Positions 323-20,498 of a DNA stretch of 28,565 bases are shown here, piece by piece (within the stretch, counting starts at the first letter, position 1; the number at the start of each line of letters is the position of its first letter). The notes under the pieces are model-generated. The model saw nothing but the letters and a program-made list of their open reading frames with translations. It was not told the DNA's origin and ran no database searches. Both the position numbers and the translations under genes were made by a program. This DNA comes from an uncultured Eubacterium sp. (GTDB lineage Bacteria > Bacillota_A > Clostridia > Lachnospirales > Lachnospiraceae), in assembly GCA_948468465.1 (NCBI GenBank), contig CAOKJJ010000051.1, positions 1-28,565 of the forward strand, read 5' to 3'.

Positions 323-368
323 TGTTGTATCGTGTGAAATTTCGGAGAAAAAATGTGGATTTGTGTTG
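323..368 (-). promoter_or_regulatory. Two operator-like 15-mers at promoter P1
   Basis: Read on the minus strand, 354-368 is CAACACAAATCCACA, a 14/15 match to the 15-mer CAACACAAATCAACA found at promoter P2. Bases 323-337 read TCACACGATACAACA, a more diverged copy that closely matches the diverged copy in P2 at 4261-4275. The two sites start 31 bp apart, about three helical turns. The proximal one overlaps the -35 box, so a bound protein would probably block transcription. The DeoR-family regulator at 12583 is the natural candidate; that link is inference. Confidence 0.6.
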
Positions 369-394
369 CTTTTAGGGATGAAATAGGGTATAAT
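366..394 (+). promoter_or_regulatory. Promoter P1, sigma-A type, for the dehydratase operon
   Basis: TTGCTT at 366-371, a 17-base spacer and a perfect TATAAT at 389-394 lie 45 bases upstream of the dehydratase ATG. An AAAGGAG ribosome binding site follows at about 422-428. This would drive 439-4173. Confidence 0.75.
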
Positions 395-438
395 ACAAAT
401 ATTCCTGTTGATGTACATAAGAAAGGAGAAAATAGAAA

Positions 439-2970
439 ATGGGATTATATACCTATGACAGTACGCCGATACCCAAGACGGACCGGATTCCCAAGCTGGT
501 AGAGCATCTGTATGCGAAAATGCCGGAAATCGAATCGGCGCGGGCGGTTCTGATTACAGAATCTTATCGCCAGACGGAGCAGGAGCCGATGGTAATCCGC
601 AGAGCGAAGGCATTTCAGCACATCCTGGAGCACATTCCGATTGTGATTCGTGACCTGGAGTTGATTGTCGGAAGCACTACGATTGCGCCGAGAGGATGCC
701 AGACCTATCCGGAGTTTTCCTATGAATGGCTGGAAGAAGAGTTCGATACGGTGGCTACGCGTGCGGCGGATCCGTTTTACATATCGGAGCAGACCAAAAA
801 AGAGCTGAAAGAAGCAAATGCTTATTGGAAGGGCAAGACGACGAGTGAGCTTGCGACTGCTTATATGGAGCCGGAGACGTTGGCTGCGATGGAGCATAAT
901 ATGTTTACCCCGGGCAATTATTTTTATAATGGGGTCGGCCATGTGACTGTTAAATATGAAGAAGTGCTTGCGATTGGATTTTCGGGCATCCGGCGCAAAG
1001 CGGAGGAAGAGCTTGATACGATCAATCTGGCTGACGGCAATTATCAGAAAAAATCCAGGTTTTTGCAGGCCGTGATGATCAGCTGTGACGCGGCGATTGC
1101 TTATGCAAGGCGTTATGCGAAGCTGGCGCTGGAAGAAGCGCAGGCATGTCAGGATCCAGTGAGGAAAAAAGAACTGCTGATCATTGCCCAAAACTGCGCG
1201 AATGTGCCGGAAAACGGTGCGTCCGGATTTTATGAGGCATGCCAGTCGTTTTGGTTTGTGCAGCAGCTGCTTCAGATCGAATCAAGCGGACATTCCATAT
1301 CGCCGGGGCGGTTTGACCAGTATATGTATCCTTATTATAAGGAAGATTTGGACAGCGGCAGGATTACCCGTGCGTTTGCGCAGGAGCTGATGGATTGTAT
1401 CTGGGTAAAATTAAACGACTTAAATAAATGCAGAGACGCCGCTTCAGCGGAAGGGTTTGCGGGTTACAGCCTGTTCCAGAACCTGATCGCGGGCGGACAG
1501 AATGCGGAAGGCGTGGATGTGACGAATGATCTGTCGTTTATGTGCATACAGGCGTCCATGCATGTATTCTTGCCGCAGCCGTCTTTCTCTGTGCGTGTAT
1601 GGAATGGCACGCCGCATGAGTTTTTGATCCGGGCGGCGGAGCTGACACGGACAGGCATTGGCCTGCCGGCTTATTATAATGATGAAGTGATCATTCCTTC
1701 ATTGATCAGCAGGGGACTGTCCTTGCAGGATGCGAGAGAGTACAACATTATCGGATGTGTGGAGCCGCAGAAAGCAGGCAAGACTGAAGGATGGCATGAC
1801 GCGGCGTTTTTCAATATGTGCCGTCCGCTGGAGCTTGTATTTACCAATGGAATGGATGCGGGTGTCCAGGTGGGGCTTAAGACTGGCGAAGTTGAACAGA
1901 TGGAAAGCTTTGAGCAGTTTTATGATGCATATAAAGCGCAGATGGATTATGCGATTCAGCTGTTGGTAAACGCGGACAATGCGATTGATATGGCCCATGC
2001 TGAGCGGTGTCCGCTTCCGTTTTTGTCCAGTATGGTAGATGACTGCATGAAGCGGGGGAAGACTGTGCAGGAAGGCGGGGCTGTTTATAACTTTACCGGC
2101 CCGCAGGGATTTGGCGTGGCAAATATGGCGGATTCCCTGTATGCGGTGAAGAAGCTTGTTTATGAAGAAAAGAAGCTGACGATGAAAGAATTAAAGCGGG
2201 CGCTTATGACCAATTATGGAAAGGGCCTGACGAGGGAAGATATCGCGGCATTTGCGGCTAACGCGGCGAAGAATATGCAGGAGGCCGGAGAAAATGTAGG
2301 AGAGCGTGAGATCGCGGCGATTTTACAGGCCATAACGACGGCGGCGCAGGCTCCGCAGGTGGTAGAGAGCGGGGAGCGTATTTTAAAACTCATTGAAGAA
2401 GTGCCGAAGTTTGGAAACGATATTGAACAGGTCGACGCGTTTGCGAGAGATGTGGCTTATACGTACACAAAACCGCTGCAGAATTATAAAAATCCGCGCG
2501 GCGGCATGTTCCAGGCGGGGCTGTATCCGGTATCCGCGAATGTGCCGCTTGGTGCGCAGACCGGAGCGACACCGGACGGACGTCTGGCGCATACGCCGGT
2601 TGCGGATGGTGTTTCCCCATCGGCAGGCAAGGATGTCAATGGCCCGACGGCAGCGGCCAATTCCGTGGCAAGGCTGGATCACTATATTGCCAGCAATGGG
2701 ACGCTCTTTAATCAGAAGTTCCATCCGTCAGCGCTCAGCGGGACACAGGGACTGGAGAATTTTACGGGATTGATACGTGCTTACTTTGATCAGAAAGGCA
2801 GCCATATGCAGTTTAACGTAGTCAGCAGGGAAACGCTGCTGGACGCGCAGCAGCATCCGGAGCAGTATAAGCATCTTGTGGTACGTGTTGCAGGGTACAG
2901 CGCGTTGTTTACGACATTGTCCCGGTCTTTGCAGGATGATATTATAAGACGGACGCAGCAGGGATTTTAA
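439..2970 (+). CDS. Glycyl radical 1,2-propanediol dehydratase (B12-independent)
   Basis: This 843-residue glycyl radical enzyme belongs to the pyruvate formate-lyase superfamily, diol/glycerol dehydratase branch. The thiyl cysteine is C440 in NIIGCVEPQ, with E442 as the expected acid/base. The GWHDAAFFNM stretch that follows is typical of the glycerol/propanediol dehydratase branch. The C-terminal glycyl radical loop is RVAGYSALF with G819. The enzyme removes water from (S)-1,2-propanediol to give propionaldehyde. Glycerol as substrate is not excluded by motifs, but fucI, fucU and the aldolase in the same locus favour propanediol. It is first in its operon under P1, immediately before its activase. 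The N-terminus starts directly with the catalytic-domain sequence and shows no obvious amphipathic encapsulation peptide, unlike several neighbours. Confidence 0.93.
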   Translation: MGLYTYDSTPIPKTDRIPKLVEHLYAKMPEIESARAVLITESYRQTEQEPMVIRRAKAFQHILEHIPIVIRDLELIVGSTTIAPRGCQTYPEFSYEWLEEEFDTVATRAADPFYISEQTKKELKEANAYWKGKTTSELATAYMEPETLAAMEHNMFTPGNYFYNGVGHVTVKYEEVLAIGFSGIRRKAEEELDTINLADGNYQKKSRFLQAVMISCDAAIAYARRYAKLALEEAQACQDPVRKKELLIIAQNCANVPENGASGFYEACQSFWFVQQLLQIESSGHSISPGRFDQYMYPYYKEDLDSGRITRAFAQELMDCIWVKLNDLNKCRDAASAEGFAGYSLFQNLIAGGQNAEGVDVTNDLSFMCIQASMHVFLPQPSFSVRVWNGTPHEFLIRAAELTRTGIGLPAYYNDEVIIPSLISRGLSLQDAREYNIIGCVEPQKAGKTEGWHDAAFFNMCRPLELVFTNGMDAGVQVGLKTGEVEQMESFEQFYDAYKAQMDYAIQLLVNADNAIDMAHAERCPLPFLSSMVDDCMKRGKTVQEGGAVYNFTGPQGFGVANMADSLYAVKKLVYEEKKLTMKELKRALMTNYGKGLTREDIAAFAANAAKNMQEAGENVGEREIAAILQAITTAAQAPQVVESGERILKLIEEVPKFGNDIEQVDAFARDVAYTYTKPLQNYKNPRGGMFQAGLYPVSANVPLGAQTGATPDGRLAHTPVADGVSPSAGKDVNGPTAAANSVARLDHYIASNGTLFNQKFHPSALSGTQGLENFTGLIRAYFDQKGSHMQFNVVSRETLLDAQQHPEQYKHLVVRVAGYSALFTTLSRSLQDDIIRRTQQGF

Positions 2971-2971
2971 T

Positions 2972-3805
2972 ATGTCTGCTTCACGGGAAGGAAAGATGGG
3001 TATGGAAGACTATCAAAAGACGAAAGGACGTATTTTTGATATCCAAAGGTATTCGATTCATGACGGATACGGGATACGGACGATCGTATTTTTAAAAGGC
3101 TGTGTGCTGCGGTGCCGTTGGTGCTGCAATCCCGAATCCCAGGAATACGCGGTGCAGACCATGCTTGTCCAGGGAGAGCCAAAGGTAATCGGACGGGATG
3201 TGACCGCAGAGGAAGTGCTAAAGACTGTGGAAAAAGACCGGGCCTATTACCGCAGAACCGGAGGAGGCCTGACGCTTTCCGGCGGAGAGAGCCTTTGCCA
3301 GCCGGAATTTGCCGCGGCGCTTTTGCGGGGAGCAAAGGAAGCTGGCATTTCCACGGCGCTGGAGAGCATGGCGTGCGCGAAATGGGAAGTGATTGAGAGT
3401 ATACTGCCATGGTTAGATCAGTATCTTTTGGATATCAAACATATGAACGGCGCCAAGCACCAGGAGTTTACAGGCAAAAGCAATGAGCTGATGCTGGAAA
3501 ACGCGGTGAAAATCGCAAATGCGCAGAAAAAATATCATACGGAGTTAAGCATTCGTGTACCGGTGATTCCGGGATTTAACGACACGGTACAGGAAATCCG
3601 TGACATCGCCGCGTTTACCGGACAGCTTCAAAATGTCAGACGGCTGCACTTACTGCCATACCACAGGCTTGGACAGGATAAATACGCGGGACTTGGCAGA
3701 GAATATCTGATGGGAGAGGTACAGCCGCCTTCGGATGAAAAGATGCAGGAGCTTTTGCGGACAGCCATACAGGCATCCGGTGTCGAATGCCAGATCGGAG
3801 GATAA
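2972..3805 (+). CDS. Glycyl radical enzyme activase (radical SAM)
   Basis: This radical SAM protein of up to 277 residues would install the glycyl radical on the dehydratase, using S-adenosylmethionine and a [4Fe-4S] cluster. The cluster motif is C44-X3-C48-X2-C51 (GCVLRCRWC) followed by CNPES, a signature of glycyl radical activases. The SAM-binding GGGLTLSGGES and the later ALESMA and LLDIKHM motifs are present. After CNPES it goes almost straight to the second part of the fold, so the ferredoxin-like insert with two extra [4Fe-4S] clusters, common in dehydratase activases, is missing. The start is uncertain: ATG 2972 follows the dehydratase stop by one base, but ATG 3002 has a better-placed AGGAAAG. 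The stop overlaps the next start as TAATG. Confidence 0.93.
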   Translation: MSASREGKMGMEDYQKTKGRIFDIQRYSIHDGYGIRTIVFLKGCVLRCRWCCNPESQEYAVQTMLVQGEPKVIGRDVTAEEVLKTVEKDRAYYRRTGGGLTLSGGESLCQPEFAAALLRGAKEAGISTALESMACAKWEVIESILPWLDQYLLDIKHMNGAKHQEFTGKSNELMLENAVKIANAQKKYHTELSIRVPVIPGFNDTVQEIRDIAAFTGQLQNVRRLHLLPYHRLGQDKYAGLGREYLMGEVQPPSDEKMQELLRTAIQASGVECQIGG

Positions 3806-4173
3806 TGGTGCAGCACGAGATCAACAGCATACCGGAAAGGATCGTACAGGAACTTGTACCTGGAAAAGAGGTTTCTATCGCGCATGTCATCGCAGGGCCA
3901 GATGACAGTCTGTATGAAAAGCTGGGGTTAAAGGCGGCGGACGGCAGCAGGTCGGCGATCGGACTGCTGACAGTAAGTCCGCCGGAGACGGCGATTATTG
4001 CGGCGGATGTGGCAGTCAAGGCAGCGGGAGTTACACTTGGATTTTTAGACCGTGTGCATGGCACGCTGGTGATAACGGGCACTGTGTCTGAAACAGAAGC
4101 GGCAGTCCGGGCGGTATTAAATTATGTGCAGGAAAAGATGGGCTTTTCCGTATGTGAAATTACAAGGACTTAG
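3805..4173 (+). CDS. BMC shell protein, permuted BMC-H (EutS/PduU type)
   Basis: This 122-residue protein matches EutS/PduU, the circularly permuted BMC-H subfamily. It shows an N-terminal PERIVQELVPGKEVSIAHVIA segment, the AIGLLTVSPPETAIIAADVAVKAA helix region and the C-terminal GFSVCEITRT ending. In this family hexamers carry a small beta-barrel over the pore. ATG 3805 was chosen because it aligns with the family N-terminus, has GGAGG just upstream and overlaps the activase stop. A longer frame from 3787 adds only MPDRRI. Its separation from the other shell genes, and its co-transcription with the dehydratase, is notable. Confidence 0.9.
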   Translation: MVQHEINSIPERIVQELVPGKEVSIAHVIAGPDDSLYEKLGLKAADGSRSAIGLLTVSPPETAIIAADVAVKAAGVTLGFLDRVHGTLVITGTVSETEAAVRAVLNYVQEKMGFSVCEITRT

Positions 4174-4227
4174 CGAAGAAAATAAAATCAAATATAAGTC
4201 AAAAATAAAATGAAAAAACAACAAAAA

Positions 4228-4315
4228 CAACACAAATCAAATAGAAAAAACATTGACGAATGTTGAATCGTGTGGTAATATGTAGAAAGAACAATGAAAA
4301 CAACACAAATCAACA
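4228..4315 (+). promoter_or_regulatory. Three operator-like 15-mers around promoter P2
   Basis: CAACACAAATCAACA lies at 4301-4315, just downstream of P2. CAACACAAATCAAAT lies at 4228-4242, upstream of the -35 box. The two sit in a longer exact direct repeat of 17 bases (4224-4240 and 4297-4313). A third, inverted and diverged copy (minus strand CCACACGATTCAACA) lies at 4261-4275 inside the promoter spacer. The same motif occurs at P1. This layout suggests cooperative repression or looping by one regulator, probably the DeoR-family protein at 12583 (inferred). The rest of 4174-4342 is AT-rich with no gene. Confidence 0.65.
4253..4281 (+). promoter_or_regulatory. Promoter P2, sigma-A type, for the main BMC operon
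   Basis: TTGACG at 4253-4258, a 17-base spacer and TAATAT at 4276-4281 form a strong sigma-A promoter. A ribosome binding site AAGGAGG at about 4329-4335 precedes the aldolase ATG at 4343. No terminator was seen between here and 13347. Confidence 0.75.
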
Positions 4316-4342
4316 CTAATTCAATCCAAGGAGGATCTGAAC

Positions 4343-5149
4343 ATGCAAAACGAATACGAAATAAAAAAAGAAATGTGCGAAATCGGCAAGCGGGTTTATA
4401 ACCGCGGCATGGTAGCTGCTAATGACGGTAATTTTTCCGTGAAACTGAATGAAAATGAGTTTTTATGCACGCCGACAGGTGTCAGCAAAGGATTTATGAC
4501 ACCGGAGTATATCTGCAAGGTAGATGCGCTGGGAAATGTGATTCAGGCAAATAAAGGCTTCCGTCCGTCTTCTGAGATTAAGATGCATATGCGGGTATAC
4601 AAAGAAAGACCGGATGTTAATTCCGTTGTTCATGCACATCCTTTGTATGCGACAACGTTTGCGATTGCAGGCATTCCGCTCACACAGCCGATCATGCCGG
4701 AAGCGGTCATTGCTCTTGGATGTGTTCCGATCGCAAAATACGGCACGCCGTCTACGATGGAAATTCCTGACGCTGTATCAGAGCATTTACAGTATTTTGA
4801 CGCGGTACTGCTTGAAAATCACGGAGCGCTTACGTATTCGGATTCGCTGCTGAGCGCTTATCATAAAATGGAATCCGTGGAATTCTACGCACGCCTGCTC
4901 TGGCAGACCATGCAGATCGGCGGTCCGCAGGAATTAAATAAAGAACAGGTAGAAAAACTGTATGAAGTCCGCAGACAGATGGGAATGACCGGAAAGCATC
5001 CTGCGAATTTATGTCCGAATGCAAAGGCAGGAAAGCCAAGCTGCCACAGCTGCGGCGGAAATTGTGGTTCATCAGCGCCACAGGCAGGTGCGGATAAAGA
5101 TCTGATAGCTTCTATTACAGAAAAAGTAATGGCACAGCTTGGAATGTAG
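4343..5149 (+). CDS. fucA: L-fuculose-1-phosphate aldolase with BMC-targeting C-terminal tail
   Basis: This class II, zinc-dependent aldolase/epimerase-fold enzyme of 268 residues splits L-fuculose-1-phosphate into DHAP and L-lactaldehyde. Family motifs are ANDGNFSVKL, the phosphate-binding TGVSKGF, SSEIKMH (catalytic Glu), VVHAHP (two zinc His) and LLENHGAL (third His). The catalytic domain ends near residue 215. A tail of about 50 residues follows, with four cysteines (C224, C234, C237, C241; CX9CX2CX3C) and a final amphipathic helix DLIASITEKVMAQLGM that resembles an encapsulation peptide. This points to an aldolase inside the compartment, so toxic lactaldehyde would be made there. Rhamnulose-1-phosphate as an extra substrate is possible; the linked FucI and FucU argue for fucose. 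Confidence 0.9.
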   Translation: MQNEYEIKKEMCEIGKRVYNRGMVAANDGNFSVKLNENEFLCTPTGVSKGFMTPEYICKVDALGNVIQANKGFRPSSEIKMHMRVYKERPDVNSVVHAHPLYATTFAIAGIPLTQPIMPEAVIALGCVPIAKYGTPSTMEIPDAVSEHLQYFDAVLLENHGALTYSDSLLSAYHKMESVEFYARLLWQTMQIGGPQELNKEQVEKLYEVRRQMGMTGKHPANLCPNAKAGKPSCHSCGGNCGSSAPQAGADKDLIASITEKVMAQLGM

Positions 5150-12563: not shown

Positions 12564-12582
12564 TTGACAAGGAGGAAACGTG

Positions 12583-13347
12583 ATGCTCGCAATTGAAAGG
12601 CGCAAAGAAATACTGGAAAAGCTGCAGGCAGAACATCGTGTCGTCGTCAGCGAGTTAAGTCAAAGTTATGGTGTGTCAGAAGAAACGATCAGGAGAGATC
12701 TGGAAAAGCTGGAAAATGAAGGTTATGCGATTAAAAGTTATGGCGGAGCGGTCATCAATGAAAACGCTAACATGGATTTTTCGTTTAATGTCAGAAAAAA
12801 CCGAAACATTGTAGGAAAACAGCAGATTGCAAAGCTGATCAGCCAGATGGTGCATGACGGCGACAGCCTGATGCTGGACGCGAGTTCTACAGCGGTATAT
12901 ATAGCACGGGCTTTGAAAGAGAAAAAGAACCTGATCGTAATCACCAATTCCATCGAAATTATTATGGAGCTTTTGGATATGACAGACTGGAACGTTATTT
13001 CCACCGGAGGGGCATCACGGGTGAGTTCTTGTGCATTGGTAGGTCCGCAGACCGATAAGATGTTAAGATCGTATCATGTGGACAAAGCTTTTATTTCATG
13101 CAAGGGGTTTGATTTGCATGCGGGTTTTACAGACTCGGATGAACTGCATGCGAATAATAAGAAAACAATGCTGGAATCAGCAAAAGAAAAAATATTGTGT
13201 GTTGATTCCAGCAAATTTGGGGAAACGGCATTTGTTTCGATCGGGACGCTGTCAGATGTGAGTACGGTCGTAACCGATAAAAAACCGGAGGATAAGTGGC
13301 TGCAGGCATTTCAGGCAGCCGGGGTGGAGTGCTTTTATCCGGAATGA
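12583..13347 (+). CDS. DeoR-family transcriptional regulator of the fucose/BMC operons
   Basis: This 254-residue DeoR/GlpR-type repressor has an N-terminal winged helix (ERRKEILEKLQAEHRVVVSELSQSYGVSEETIRRDLEKLE, residues 5-45), KSYGGAVI, and a C-terminal sugar-phosphate sensor domain with DGDSLMLDASSTAVYIARAL, NLIVITNS, and DSSKFG near the end. The effector is probably a pathway phosphosugar such as fuculose-1-phosphate or DHAP. It is the last gene of the BMC operon with no terminator before it. It is the best candidate for binding the CAACACAAATC-type sites at P1 and P2. GGAGG at 12571-12575 supports ATG 12583 over GTG 12580. Confidence 0.92.
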   Translation: MLAIERRKEILEKLQAEHRVVVSELSQSYGVSEETIRRDLEKLENEGYAIKSYGGAVINENANMDFSFNVRKNRNIVGKQQIAKLISQMVHDGDSLMLDASSTAVYIARALKEKKNLIVITNSIEIIMELLDMTDWNVISTGGASRVSSCALVGPQTDKMLRSYHVDKAFISCKGFDLHAGFTDSDELHANNKKTMLESAKEKILCVDSSKFGETAFVSIGTLSDVSTVVTDKKPEDKWLQAFQAAGVECFYPE

Positions 13348-13404
13348 CGAAGTGCCCCAAAATTTGACAAATATGGTTTCTGTGATTTGCCAAGAGGTGT
13401 TTTT

Positions 13405-15015
13405 ATGTATAGGGTATTATTGGTGGATGATGAGATTCTGGTCAGGGAAGCAGTCAGTGCGAAAATCCGTTGGAAGGATTTGGGGTTTGAACTGGCGGGG
13501 TTATGTGAAAACGGGCAGCAGGCAGTAGAGTTTATGAAAAACAGCCCGGTAGATGTGGTATTGACGGATATTTACATGCCGTACATGGATGGTCTGGGAC
13601 TGAGCAAATATATATATGAGAATTGTCCGCAGACGCAGATTATTATATTCAGTGGCTATGGAGAATTTGAATATGCAAAGCAGGCGCTTTCGTACCATGT
13701 GTCTGAATATATTTTAAAACCAGTGACAGCAAAAGAACTGTCCAAAGTATTGGTGTCCGTCCGGGAGAAACTGGACCATGCACGCAGACAGGAACAAAAA
13801 TTAGATCAGCTTAACGAGGTATACCATAAATATACGAAAAATGAATCGCTGATTATATCCAAAGCGCTTTCCAGACTCGTAAGCGGTACGCAGGGGATGA
13901 AAAAAAGCTTAAAGGAGCTGGACGAGCTGGGCGTGCAGATACGTGGAAACGCGTTTCGGGTTGTGGCCGCGGAACTGGATGTATATTCAGGATATTGTGA
14001 AATGGAAAAGGAACTGAAAAAAGGAAGCGCATTGATGTCGTTTGTTGTTGAGAACATCAGCGATGAGATTTTAAGGCGCATGGACTGCGGCATTGCTTAC
14101 CGGGATTCGGATAACCGGATCTGCCTGCTGATCTGGAAACATGCAAAGCAGGAGCATGCAGGCCAGATTCGGGAAATATGCAAAGAAATACAGGAGAATG
14201 TATATAAGGCGGCACGCTTAAGTGTATCTATGGGTATCGGACATTGCGTAACAGCGTTGGATGAGCTGCCTTATTCTTATGCATCGGCGTCGGAAATGCT
14301 GCAGTACCGTTATGCAAAAGGAACCGGCGTCATTTTGGACAGCAGTGACAGGCAGTGCGAAGCAAATCCGATGACCTTGAAAAAAGAACTGAAGGCTGCC
14401 GCGGAAGCAGTTAAAAACATGGATCAAAATAATTTTGAAAAAATACTGGATACCATAGAATCCTGGATCAGTTCCAATTATGTAAGCCGGAATGCGGCCG
14501 TGGCATATTTTCAGCAGATTTTGCAGACAATATATACAAACGTGTATCAGGCCGATGAGAATTTTGCGGCGCCGGAAGCGGTTATGGCAGCCGCTGCGGA
14601 TGCATACAGCGCAGAGGCCGCGATGGAAGCGGTACGAGAGTATGCGGCAAAAGGATTTCTGGCGCTTAAAAAAATCGGACAATCGAGCAGCAAGCGTCAG
14701 GCGGATAAAGCAATGGACTATATTTATGAAAACTATAGCGATCAGAATCTTGGCTTAAACCAGATCTGTGAATATTTAAATATAAGTACAAGCCATTTTT
14801 CCAGTATATTTAAAGAAGCGACCGGACAGACGTTTATTGAAGCGCTGATGAATGTCCGCATCCAAAACGCGGAACGGCTGCTGCGCCAGACAAAACTGAA
14901 AAATTATGAGATCGCGGAAAAAGTAGGATTCAGCGATCCTCATTATTTCAGCATCGTGTTTAAAAAAATGACAGGAAAGACCCCGAAGGAATATGCAAGG
15001 GAGAATGCAGAATGA
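13405..15015 (+). CDS. AraC-type response regulator (YesN family)
   Basis: This 536-residue protein has an N-terminal receiver domain (VLLVDDE at 4-10; phospho-acceptor D55 in VLTDIYMPYMDG; the conserved K in ILKPVT), a long central region and a C-terminal AraC/XylS double helix-turn-helix of about 100 residues (QICEYLNISTSHFSSIFKEATGQ, EIAEKVGFSDPHYFSIVFKKMTGKTPKEYA). ATG 13405 with AAGAGGTG upstream is the likely start; a TTG at 13387 would add six residues. It follows the DeoR gene by 57 bases. Its stop overlaps the kinase start. The likely target is the transporter promoter near 17900. Confidence 0.93.
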   Translation: MYRVLLVDDEILVREAVSAKIRWKDLGFELAGLCENGQQAVEFMKNSPVDVVLTDIYMPYMDGLGLSKYIYENCPQTQIIIFSGYGEFEYAKQALSYHVSEYILKPVTAKELSKVLVSVREKLDHARRQEQKLDQLNEVYHKYTKNESLIISKALSRLVSGTQGMKKSLKELDELGVQIRGNAFRVVAAELDVYSGYCEMEKELKKGSALMSFVVENISDEILRRMDCGIAYRDSDNRICLLIWKHAKQEHAGQIREICKEIQENVYKAARLSVSMGIGHCVTALDELPYSYASASEMLQYRYAKGTGVILDSSDRQCEANPMTLKKELKAAAEAVKNMDQNNFEKILDTIESWISSNYVSRNAAVAYFQQILQTIYTNVYQADENFAAPEAVMAAAADAYSAEAAMEAVREYAAKGFLALKKIGQSSSKRQADKAMDYIYENYSDQNLGLNQICEYLNISTSHFSSIFKEATGQTFIEALMNVRIQNAERLLRQTKLKNYEIAEKVGFSDPHYFSIVFKKMTGKTPKEYARENAE

Positions 15016-16820
15016 AACAGCGAGGAAAGACGGTATCCTTGTTTGGTAAATTTAAAAAAATCCAGAGTGCGATGATGGCATCTTTTTCGGTACTTGTGAT
15101 TCTGGCCGGACTGACCTTTTTATTAATTGCGGTAAATTTTACAGATAAAGCGATTTACGAAAATTCCATTCATTATACGACGCAGATCATTGAACAGGTA
15201 AACCGCGATATTGACGCGTATATTGATTATATGGAGAATATTTCATCTGTAATCGCAACAAGCAGCGATGTATCTTTGTATTTGTTTGATGATAATCAGA
15301 CCGCAAAGCAGTATGCACAGGAAAAAGAGCGTATTTTGACGCAGTTTCATACGATTATGGAAAGCCGCAGCGACATTTATAATATCGCGATCGTAGCCGA
15401 TAATGGAAAATATATTGTAAACAGCGGAAAAGAAAAGCTGACCGAGTACATTGACATCAAAAGCCTGGACTGGTATCAGGAGACAATGCGTGCGTCAGGC
15501 GGGATCGCGGTCTCTTCTTCCCATGTGCAGAATGCGATTCAAAGCAGTTATCAGTGGGTCATTACGCTGAGCCGCGCGCTTGTAAATAACCGGACCGGAG
15601 AAAAAGAAGGACTTTTTTTCGTGGATTTGAATTACAGTGCCATCAGCGATCTGTGCAACAGCAATCAGATCGGAAACAAAGGCTATGTATTTTTAATAGA
15701 TGCAGACGGAAACGTCGTATATCATCCAAAGCAGCAGTTACTCTACGGGGGTCTTAGGACCGAAAAGATAGATGAAGTGATGAACTGCGAATCGAATTAT
15801 TTTTTTACTGAAGAAGATGCCGAGCGCAGGCTGTATACAATGTCGCGGTCTGAAAAAACCGGATGGACGGCTGTAGGCGTGGCATACAGCTCCGAACTTT
15901 TAAAAAATACAAAGCAGGCGCAGCTGATGCATCTTTTGGTGGCGGCAGGCCTGCTGCTGGGTGTACTCATACTCTCGAACCGGCTTTCCCAGGAACTGAC
16001 AAAACCGATCCGCCAGCTGCGGGATGGAATGAGTACGATAGAAGAAGGAAATTTTGAAACGCGTGTGGATATTGCGGTGGAAAATGAGATTGGCAGCCTG
16101 GCAAGGTCTTTTAATATGATGACAGACCGCATACATGCTTTGATTGAACAAAACTTCTATGAACAGGAGCAAAAACGCAAAAGTGAGCTGCGGGCACTGC
16201 AGGCGCAGATCAATCCGCATTTTTTATATAATACGCTGGATTCGATTATCTGGATGGCAGAGGATGAAAAAAATGAAGAAGTCGTAGTGATGACAGCTGC
16301 GCTTGCAAGACTGCTGCGTCAAAGCATCAGCAACGAACAGGAACAGGTAACGATCGAACAGGAGATAGATTATGTCAGAAGCTATCTGACCATTCAAAAA
16401 ATGCGTTATAAAGATAAGCTGGAATATGAGATTGAAGTGGCGCCGGAAATAATGCCTGTGCAGATCGTCAAATTTACGCTTCAGCCATTAGTGGAAAATG
16501 CGATTTATCATGGAATTAAATATAAAGAAACAAAAGGCACAATCTGCATCCGTGGTTTTGCCAGAGACAAACAAGCGCAGATTGCTGTGGAAGACGACGG
16601 TGCGGGCATGGATGAGCACCAGATTCACCGGATTCTGGAAGATACCGCGAATGAAAACGCAAGGACAAGCGGCGTTGGCGTTGCGAATGTACAAAAACGG
16701 CTGCAGCTGTATTACGGAGAAGAATACGGCATTTCCTATACAAGCGAAGTCGGAAAGGGGACAACAGCGCTTGTAACCATTCCAATGACTGAAGGGGGCA
16801 ATGAAAGTGTGGAAAGCTAA
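15012..16820 (+). CDS. Sensor histidine kinase (YesM/LytS-like, HisKA_7TM-free)
   Basis: This 602-residue membrane kinase has TM1 near residues 18-42, an extracytoplasmic sensor of about 250 residues with Cache-like features (SSDVSLYLFD, GYVFLIDADGNVVYHP), TM2 near 300-320, a HAMP linker (LTKPIRQLRDGMSTIEEGNF...) and the His_kinase block with H403 in ALQAQINPHFLYNTLDSI. The HATPase has the N box PLVENAIYHGIKY and G boxes DDGAGMDE and GVGVANVQKRL. It overlaps the regulator upstream (ATGA) and the sugar-binding protein downstream by 20 bases, so the three are a translation-coupled set. Its signal is probably a bound sugar delivered by the downstream protein. Confidence 0.93.
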   Translation: MKQRGKTVSLFGKFKKIQSAMMASFSVLVILAGLTFLLIAVNFTDKAIYENSIHYTTQIIEQVNRDIDAYIDYMENISSVIATSSDVSLYLFDDNQTAKQYAQEKERILTQFHTIMESRSDIYNIAIVADNGKYIVNSGKEKLTEYIDIKSLDWYQETMRASGGIAVSSSHVQNAIQSSYQWVITLSRALVNNRTGEKEGLFFVDLNYSAISDLCNSNQIGNKGYVFLIDADGNVVYHPKQQLLYGGLRTEKIDEVMNCESNYFFTEEDAERRLYTMSRSEKTGWTAVGVAYSSELLKNTKQAQLMHLLVAAGLLLGVLILSNRLSQELTKPIRQLRDGMSTIEEGNFETRVDIAVENEIGSLARSFNMMTDRIHALIEQNFYEQEQKRKSELRALQAQINPHFLYNTLDSIIWMAEDEKNEEVVVMTAALARLLRQSISNEQEQVTIEQEIDYVRSYLTIQKMRYKDKLEYEIEVAPEIMPVQIVKFTLQPLVENAIYHGIKYKETKGTICIRGFARDKQAQIAVEDDGAGMDEHQIHRILEDTANENARTSGVGVANVQKRLQLYYGEEYGISYTSEVGKGTTALVTIPMTEGGNESVES

Positions 16821-19004: not shown

Positions 19005-20498
19005 GTGGGAGATATAATTTTAAAAATGAATGGAATTGATAAATCTTTCCCTGGCGTGCATGCGCTGGACCACGTCAATCTGGAGGTCAGAAAAGGCGAG
19101 GTGCTTGCGTTAATGGGAGAGAACGGGGCCGGAAAGTCTACATTGATGAAGGTGCTGACGGGCATCTATAAAAAAGATGAAGGCTCGATTGTATATGAAG
19201 GAAAAGAAGTGGAATTCACGAATCCGAAAGATGCCCAGGAGGCAGGGATCGTCATTGTGCATCAGGAATTAAATATGATGAATCATCTGACTGTTGCGCA
19301 GAATATTTTTATCGGACGTGAAGCAATGTCCGGCAAGCTGATTAACGATAAAAAGATGAACGAAGAGGCTGAAAAGCTGTTTCAAAAGCTGAATATAAAG
19401 ATTGACCCTACGGAAAAGATGGGGAACCTTACCGTAGGTAAACAGCAGATGTGTGAGATTGCAAAAGCGATTTCCCATGATGCCAAAGTCATCGTATTTG
19501 ACGAGCCGTCAGCTGCCCTGACAGAGGCTGAGATCGAAGAGTTGTTTAAAATTATTCGTGATCTCAGGGACAAGCAGCTTGGCATTGTGTATATTTCGCA
19601 CCGCATGGATGAGATTAAGGTCATTACAGACCGTGTAACGGTTATGCGTGACGGCGGCTATGTAGGAACGCTCATTACAAAAGAATCCACAAAAGATGAT
19701 ATTATCAATATGATGGTTGGACGTGTCATATACGAGGATCCAAAGACAGAGAGCAATGTGCCGAAAGACGCTCCGGTAGTGTTAAAGGTAGAACATCTGA
19801 ATGCCGGCAAGATGGTGCGGGACGTAAGCTTTGAGTTACATAAAGGTGAAATACTCGGATTTTCGGGATTGATGGGCGCGGGACGTACCGAGACAGCCAG
19901 AGCATTGTTTGGAGCGGATCCGATGGATAGCGGCGATATTTATGTCAATGGGCAGAAGGTAACGATTAAAAGCCCAATGGATGCTGTGAAATGCGGCATC
20001 GGCTATTTGTCAGAGGACAGGAAAAGATTTGGTATCGTAGTGCAGAAATCGGTAGCTGAGAATTCTACGATGGTGGATCTGGACAATTATGTCAGCGGTA
20101 TCTTTATTAATAAAAAGAAAGAAAATGAAGTAGCATTAAAATATGTAAAGTCATTAAAGACAAAGACGCCATCGGTAGACCAGCTTGTTGTCAATCTGTC
20201 TGGCGGCAATCAGCAGAAAGTCGTTATTGCAAAATGGCTGATTAGAAACTGCGATATCCTGATATTCGATGAGCCTACCAGAGGTATTGATGTAGGGGCG
20301 AAAAGTGAAATTTACCACCTGATGAACGAACTGGCTGCACAAGGAAAATCCATTATTATGATTTCTTCCGAAATGACAGAAATTCTCAGGATGAGCGACC
20401 GGATCGTAGTCATGTGTGAGGGAAGAAAGACCGGGGAACTTGACATTGCCGGCGCTACCCAGGAAAATATCATGCACGCCGCAACGCTGAGAGATTAG
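19005..20498 (+). CDS. Sugar ABC transporter ATPase, tandem (RbsA/MglA family)
   Basis: This 497-residue protein has two ABC domains. The first has the Walker A GENGAGKST (residues 39-47), signature region LTVGKQQMCEIAKA and Walker B VIVFDEPSAAL. The second has the degenerate Walker A FSGLMGAGRTE typical of this family, signature LSGGNQQKVVIAKWL and Walker B ILIFDEPTRGID. The start is GTG 19005 with AGGAAGGTGA just upstream. One such protein serves both halves of the translocator, so no second ATPase gene is needed. It lies between the two permease genes. Confidence 0.95.
   Translation: MGDIILKMNGIDKSFPGVHALDHVNLEVRKGEVLALMGENGAGKSTLMKVLTGIYKKDEGSIVYEGKEVEFTNPKDAQEAGIVIVHQELNMMNHLTVAQNIFIGREAMSGKLINDKKMNEEAEKLFQKLNIKIDPTEKMGNLTVGKQQMCEIAKAISHDAKVIVFDEPSAALTEAEIEELFKIIRDLRDKQLGIVYISHRMDEIKVITDRVTVMRDGGYVGTLITKESTKDDIINMMVGRVIYEDPKTESNVPKDAPVVLKVEHLNAGKMVRDVSFELHKGEILGFSGLMGAGRTETARALFGADPMDSGDIYVNGQKVTIKSPMDAVKCGIGYLSEDRKRFGIVVQKSVAENSTMVDLDNYVSGIFINKKKENEVALKYVKSLKTKTPSVDQLVVNLSGGNQQKVVIAKWLIRNCDILIFDEPTRGIDVGAKSEIYHLMNELAAQGKSIIMISSEMTEILRMSDRIVVMCEGRKTGELDIAGATQENIMHAATLRD

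Follow-up and report, generated by a model that had tools for sequence, protein, structure and literature searches.

Introduction

The DeoR-family RhaR regulators of rhamnose catabolism are described as recognizing motifs built from two imperfect direct repeats with a period of 10-11 bp, while a figure of 21 bp is given for the motifs of AraC-family rhamnose regulators (Rodionova and others, PMC3870299). For the DeoR family in general, the inducer is reported to be a sugar phosphate (PMC12632272). In Clostridium phytofermentans, the bacterial microcompartment (BMC) genes of a GRM5 locus are reported to be silent on glucose and induced 15-87 fold by fucose or rhamnose, while the regulator gene rises only about twofold (PMC3557285). 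Here we consider a 28,565-nucleotide stretch of DNA from an uncultured Eubacterium sp. (contig CAOKJJ010000051.1, positions 1 to 28,565), hereafter the window. By its gene content, it holds a GRM5-type fucose/rhamnose microcompartment locus in which two promoters share an operator-like motif: P1, ahead of a gene for a glycyl-radical 1,2-propanediol dehydratase (GRE), and P2, ahead of the class II aldolase gene that opens the compartment operon.

Comparison with relatives suggests that this operator probably marks a function rather than a gene. A single DeoR regulon would couple the fucose microcompartment to the 1,2-propanediol dehydratase present in a given lineage, be it the glycyl-radical or the B12-dependent enzyme, encoded in the locus or unlinked from it. 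In some genomes, the B12 enzyme would stand under the DeoR operator and the GRE under a cobalamin riboswitch, such that the sugar decides whether, and B12 which, enzyme fills the compartment.

An array of short direct repeats at two promoters

The initial annotation proposed a 15-mer, CAACACAAATCAACA, as the shared motif, and all five of its positions hold when mismatches are counted: none at 4301-4315, one at 354-368 (minus strand), two at 4228-4242, and three and five in diverged copies at 4261-4275 and 323-337 (both minus strand). Its site spacings of 31 bp at P1 and 40 bp at P2 are likewise correct. The other strand of the 15-mer reads TGTTG-ATTTG-TGTTG, its two TGTTG copies forming a direct repeat of 10-bp period, and the predicted operator unit is an array of TGTKG boxes at this period rather than an inverted 15-mer. 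The description of the second copies as inverted applies to P2, whereas at P1 both sites share one orientation. Similarly, the pairing of one good with one diverged site at each promoter is accurate letter by letter, but the supposedly diverged copy in the P2 spacer recurs, similarly placed, in many relatives.

At P1, the putative operator comprises two box pairs on the plus strand. Site A, the upstream pair (323-337, TGTTG-N5-TGTGA), departs by one mismatch from TGTKG-N5-TGTKG and scores 12.8 bits; site B (354-368, TGTGG-N5-TGTTG) has exact boxes, scores 19.7 bits, lies 31 bp from site A and shares 3 bp with the -35 element, TTGCTT (366-371, plus strand). A 17-bp spacer separates this element from the -10, TATAAT (389-394, plus strand). 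The -35 is weak in the window and in the relatives L001 and L002, and reads TTGACT in several others (L numbers denote loci and G numbers genomes).

P2 is more densely occupied. Upstream operator boxes span 4218-4242 on the minus strand (4218-4232, 15.1 bits; 4228-4242, 15.5 bits), followed on the plus strand by the -35, TTGACG (4253-4258), and, again after 17 bp, by the -10, TAATAT (4276-4281). A TGTTG-N5-TGTGG copy with exact boxes (4261-4275, plus strand; 15.4 bits) fills the gap between the two. The -10 is of the extended kind, preceded by TGG, and the TGTGG of the spacer copy also provides its TGn, with the last G common to both. Downstream lies the exact double box TGTTG-N5-TGTTG (4301-4315, minus strand; 20.5 bits), and in register with it a weak third box (4291-4305, minus strand; 9.0 and 12.4 bits with two matrices), which is intact in L001, where the site is at -52. 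The 40-bp spacing in the window arises because this third box at 4291 has decayed; taking it into account restores a spacing of about three helical turns.

Conservation and specificity of the putative operator

Relatives were gathered by scanning GTDB genomes with an alignment of 25 aldolases, which yielded at least 80 loci, and these 80 were used. Leaving out loci without a usable start or with fewer than 60 bases before it gave 78 aldolase and 45 GRE upstream regions. Many of the loci are closely related, such that the counts below are not independent, and weighting reduces the two sets to about 42 and 37 effective sequences. Counts of repeated 5-mers across periods 5 through 24 showed the box family peaking at period 10. 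At that period AACAA recurs in 42 of the 78 aldolase regions (the largest top count in 20 shuffles was 8), CCACA, equivalent to TGTGG, in 31 of 78, with zero at all other periods from 5 to 24, while among the 45 GRE regions CAACA does so in 17 (next-highest count 4; mean in shuffles 0.05). For CAACA, period 10 outnumbers period 21 by 17 to 2 in GRE regions and by 6 to 2 in aldolase regions; distances of 21-23 bp between sites are found as well, but as multiples. De novo expectation maximization from random seeds, with the window left out, recovered the same array at the aldolase promoters in a shifted frame (gTTGtTTTtTGTtGT). An initial motif fit that set no limit on the number of sites ended up at poly-T and was discarded, and 25-column models drifted for the GRE set and for the combined set.

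The search of related upstream regions that the initial annotation recommended bears out the shared motif, as the two classes of promoter predict each other. With a threshold of 11 bits, training on aldolase regions gives a matrix that recovers 41 of the 45 GRE regions, where the remaining intergenic DNA of these loci would predict 6.1, and training on GRE regions gives one that recovers 69 of the 78 aldolase regions (8.7 expected); both promoters pass in 36 of 45 loci. The P2 spacer copy typically takes the form TTGACtna-TGTGGgattgTGTGG-TAATAT in relatives, and a loose pattern for its core is matched by 39 of 78 aldolase promoters. An operator common to the dehydratase (GRE) and compartment (aldolase) promoters, and hence a shared regulon, is well supported.

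Within the window, exact copies of TGTKG-N5-TGTKG number three, at 354, 4261 and 4301, one at P1 and two at P2. The bare 15-mer with up to three mismatches matches four times against 1.02 expected, and 3 of 100 shuffles reach four; by itself it is only moderately unusual. An exact double box at both promoters appeared in none of 20,000 dinucleotide shuffles of the two intergenic segments, a figure that is not independent since the pattern was derived from these very sites. It is the comparative data, not statistics within the window, that decide whether the motif is real.

Specificity was assessed at larger scale. The absence of the motif from the transporter promoter, as originally described, is upheld: outside P1 and P2, the only combined-matrix score of at least 12 falls at 19677, inside the open reading frame (ORF) 19005-20498. 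In the 6.7-Mb genome of the closest relative, Eubacterium plexicaudatum ASF492 (L001), the sole exact 15-mer is the aldolase promoter; up to one mismatch gives three places, two of which are the BMC promoters and the third (642729) is not. With two mismatches there are 28 places against 14 for a reversed control, and because of this lack of specificity single weak sites were excluded from the evidence. Across 29 genomes, a convergent double site occurs in one place, the aldolase promoter of L001's genome, and the pattern, which is too strict, has no match in the other 28. A direct double site occurs in four places, all GRE promoters (L002, L008, L013 and L043); its reversed control has three matches, and the strength of the result resides in the location of the four real matches, not their number. 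Site density is 10.3/kb upstream of aldolase genes and 4.4/kb upstream of GRE genes versus 0.154/kb elsewhere, and the other intergenic DNA, 203 kb in all, contains two positions at 17.9 bits and none of 20 or more.

Spacing in phase with the DNA helix

Distances between sites in aldolase and GRE promoters cluster at 10, 21-23, 31-33, 42-43 and 52-55 bp, with a few off-cluster values (e.g. 7, 28 and 45); distances of 19 and 29 come from the pduC promoters. Over 181 distances and eight trial periods, the circular resultant peaks at 11 bp (0.86) and stands at 0.83 for 10.5 bp, bearing in mind that overlapping arrays render the distances partly dependent. The spacings follow the DNA helix. While orientation varies, direct at P1 and inverted at P2, helical phase is kept.

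The putative operator ahead of a B12-dependent dehydratase

Many Mediterraneibacter-type loci contain aldolase, shell and DeoR genes and no GRE gene. A close GRE copy (83-84% identity) is encoded elsewhere in 2 of 13 such genomes (G001-G013), and B12-dependent PduC in all 13, as well as in G029 and in G026, the latter with a GRE in its locus; none of five GRE-type genomes searched encodes PduC. In these Mediterraneibacter-type genomes pduC is non-homologous to the GRE gene and unlinked to the BMC locus. The operator matrix, never trained on pdu genes, scores 17.9-20.8 bits at 134-225 bp before pduC in 11 of 12 loci, against 0.03 expected. The exception, L156, scores 2.6 bits and starts near a contig end. 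These 12 loci, fetched from the 15 genomes, belong to one clade and are not independent. In L159, the only locus whose annotation was carried further downstream, genes for a medium subunit, a reactivase and an adenosyltransferase come after pduC, and no regulator was found among ten ORFs scanned in three pduC loci.

A wider draw of 150 genomes from the same family contained pduC in 12. Setting aside G001, two of the 11 genes could not be scored, one because no sequence precedes it and one because it is only an internal fragment; five of the remaining nine score 17.3-18.7 bits and four score 13.9 (G134), 11.3, 9.3 and 4.2 (G128) bits. G134, G128 and G090 each have pduC inside an aldolase-type BMC locus, where it follows the DeoR gene at a distance of about 0.3, 1.3 and 0.05 kb, respectively; sites of 16.7-21.7 bits precede the aldolase, and there is no GRE within the fetched stretch. 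In G061, the GRE, aldolase and pduC genes, the last on another contig, each have a site. The regulon had been described as comprising two operons; in relatives, it is not limited to two and extends to unlinked pduC promoters and some deoR genes set apart from the shell genes.

Gene arrangement varies among these loci. In L197, L198 and L199, which are fucose BMC loci of the aldolase type, pduC follows deoR by 0.05-1.3 kb and the fetched stretch contains no GRE; as annotated, each is a GRM5-like compartment with a predicted B12-dependent dehydratase. G050 (L201, 2415-12110) arrays pduC, pduG, the GRE and its activase in one same-strand run behind a single operator pair.

In G011 and G002, unlinked GRE genes 84% and 83% identical to the window GRE have a cobalamin riboswitch upstream (L081, 1132-1327, 87 bits; L082, 4247-4441, 106 bits). 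Both host genomes also encode PduC, and no DeoR operator was found upstream of these riboswitch-bearing genes. Judging from these sequences, there is an apparent B12-governed choice between dehydratase isozymes in the two genomes. A literature search for a cobalamin-riboswitch GRE/PduC pairing found none, its matches concerning B12 biosynthesis and a mycobacterial system. The same two genes speak against a simple rule whereby a GRE gene always carries the operator.

The probable regulator and its likely mode of action

The sites are very probably bound by the DeoR-family protein encoded in the locus (12580-13347, plus strand; HTH_DeoR and DeoRC domains), the last gene of the BMC run, whose second codon, at 12583, is ATG. 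The initial annotation had placed both promoters under one regulator and put this protein, from 12583, forward for binding tests. It stands as the best-supported candidate given its place at the end of the operon, the RhaR-like architecture of the motif and putative operators at four of five set-apart deoR genes. The DeoR gene sits behind a BMC-T gene in 60 of the 80 loci, many of the rest being incomplete and L067 having only a 38% relative; the response regulator gene shows no such linkage. Of the 61 deoR genes that make up the main set, the window's and those of 60 relatives, none has a site of at least 14 bits in the 150 bp upstream. Five deoR genes were seen set apart from shell genes, by at least 1.2 kb or with none in the fetched stretch, and the four with an operator, in G145, G179, G050 and its sister G185, have sites of 16.3-18.1 bits within 170 bp upstream (genus-level sampling covered two genomes around G050 and one around G145). 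The nearest NCBIfam models to the window protein, AgaR, GlpR and SrlR, all score under cut-off, and an alignment of helix-turn-helix (HTH) regions gave no discrimination.

Taken as a whole, the data are likely best explained by operators of the locus's own DeoR-family regulator, which would repress by occlusion and be released by a sugar phosphate; binding, repression and inducer are all inferred from sequence. Box pairs commonly about 31-33 or 42-43 bp apart, that is three or four helical turns, would allow an oligomer to grip one face of the DNA. Without inducer, DeoR would cover the P1 -35 and the spacer between the P2 -35 and -10, excluding RNA polymerase from both promoters; occlusion is proposed because bound boxes would cover these elements. 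A phosphorylated fucose or rhamnose intermediate, probably fuculose-1-phosphate or rhamnulose-1-phosphate, would then release the protein, and the position of deoR at the end of the run it controls would create negative feedback.

A number of observations weigh against this explanation. Twelve of 79 aldolase upstream regions score below 12 bits, de novo fitting at GRE promoters gives its best likelihood to a T-rich motif around one box and ranks the two-box form lower, and the two close but unlinked GRE genes of G002 and G011 are without the operator. The fifth set-apart deoR, in L051, follows the shell gene by 1165 bp and lacks a site within 250 bp (4.1 bits). A genome without a DeoR relative, as a negative control, was not found, since all 14 searched have one at 46% identity or more. 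In E. coli, FucR, of the DeoR family (PMC12632272), is an activator (PMC11011485), and the pduC boxes lie about 35-75 bp upstream of the -35, which is not a plain occlusion position; regulation at pduC may instead work through looping or activation.

The last two observations lend themselves to a model in which DeoR binds but activates some of its targets, or represses the BMC promoters and activates pduCDE. The placement of the pduC boxes well upstream of the -35 and the activation of fucAO by E. coli FucR (PMC11011485) both speak in its favor, but the P2 boxes take up the spacer that separates a -35 close to consensus from an extended -10, as fits occlusion, and we regard such a model as unlikely overall. 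Much less plausible is that the sites bind the YesN-like response regulator (13387-15015), activating both promoters through the kinase at 15012-16820. This is the sole other regulator gene recognized beside the operon, and AraC-type proteins also use direct repeats; however, among fetched stretches a YesN-like protein at 83% identity occurs only in L001 and L002 (53% and 47% in L032 and L035), and the motif is retained in dozens of loci without one. Its 10-bp unit also differs from the 21 bp of AraC-family rhamnose regulators (PMC3870299), and boxes inside a 17-bp spacer would be ill-suited to an AraC-type activator. That the repeats are promoter or leader sequence conserved by descent is least credible of all: the TGTGG by the P2 -10 doubles in part as an extended -10, and the -35 falls within TGTTGAC, but sites also occur downstream of the -10 on the other strand, before unrelated pduC promoters and before several set-apart deoR genes, mostly in helical register.

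Organization and transcription of the locus

The window contains the GRM5 feature set of GRE, class II aldolase, DUF336 protein, PduS homolog, DeoR regulator and shell genes. From the 5' end, the order is the GRE gene (439-2970, plus strand; PFL-like and Gly_radical domains), whose best solved relative is the diol dehydratase 5i2a (1348.8 bits), its activating radical-SAM enzyme (2972-3805, plus strand), a BMC-domain shell protein (3787-4173, plus strand; PF00936), a class II aldolase of the fuculose/rhamnulose-phosphate type as first gene after P2 (4343-5149, plus strand; PF00596), and an HbpS-like protein (PF03928, which we take to be the former DUF336). The remaining BMC genes encode aldehyde and alcohol dehydrogenases, shell proteins, PduL, an RnfC-like protein (Complex1_51K/RnfC_N, presumably PduS), a two-BMC-domain protein and the DeoR-family regulator. 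On its 3' side are a YesN-like two-component pair, ABC transporter genes, a kinase, fucose isomerase and FucU. The pair, a response regulator with receiver and AraC-type HTH domains and a dCache histidine kinase, lies between the BMC operon and the sugar ABC transporter. Upstream of P1, positions 1-204 hold two nested inverted repeats (arms 1-15/190-204, 100%; 25-53/152-180, 86%), possibly a small repeat element.

The original interpretation of two operons, separating the dehydratase from the compartment under one regulator, is supported as regards the shared operator but not the separate transcripts. The stretch from 4173 to 4343 showed no terminator-like site, and for this reason P1 transcripts may continue into the aldolase operon. 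One long BMC transcript has been reported in C. phytofermentans (PMC3557285). Among relatives, 6 of 45 loci fall below 11 bits at P2; five of them (L003, L006, L007, L043 and L060) keep the P1 operator and L073 has neither, while L011, L016 and L050 are just below 11 bits at P1 (9.6-10.9). There are several ways of placing dehydratase and compartment under one regulator, and the layout of the window represents one of them.

Comparison with known systems

With these results, GRM5 microcompartments gain a concrete candidate operator and a likely regulator. The motif also offers a route to missing signature enzymes, as it leads to an unlinked B12-dependent dehydratase where aldolase-type BMC loci are without a dehydratase. 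In the literature, we found no description of this operator or regulon, in a search that did not extend to most subscription papers or RegPrecise.

Among compartment loci, the window resembles C. phytofermentans Cphy_1174-1187, with its dehydratase, aldolase, shell proteins, PduS-like protein and DeoR gene at the end (PMC3557285, PMC4207490). The available text of the C. phytofermentans study mentions no operator, does not contain the word 'promoter' and places the regulator apart from the inferred long BMC transcript (PMC3557285). A further likeness is to the Firmicute 'PVM-like' loci, described in the accessible portion of PMC4207490 as having a class II aldolase, usually a DeoR regulator, and shell genes, and as suspected GRM5 fragments. 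The GRE-less Mediterraneibacter-type loci resemble these and go beyond that description in having pduC elsewhere with the same operator. An unlinked, operator-bearing pduC may thereby explain 'PVM-like' loci that PMC4207490, to the extent available, left unresolved.

Among regulators, E. coli FucR and MtnR likewise control deoxysugar-phosphate aldolase operons (PMC11011485, PMC12632272) and are named DeoR family in PMC12632272. Unlike the system described here, FucR uses an unrelated CGG/CA motif and activates, and the recognition sequence of MtnR is stated as unknown in the consulted text (PMC11011485, PMC12632272). The operators of DeoR-family RhaR are more alike, sharing direct repeats of 10-11 bp, a local deoxy-sugar regulon and a DeoR-family regulator (PMC3870299). 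As far as the available part of that paper goes, and compared by description rather than by logos, RhaR motifs differ in several respects: the prediction concerns four other groups, of which Chloroflexales, Rhizobiales and Thermotogales are named, each group has a motif sequence of its own, and the targets are rhamnose genes. The targets here are instead a microcompartment operon and two unrelated propanediol dehydratases. This kind of DeoR operator is already known, and the putative operator and regulon of the GRM5 locus are a new addition to it.

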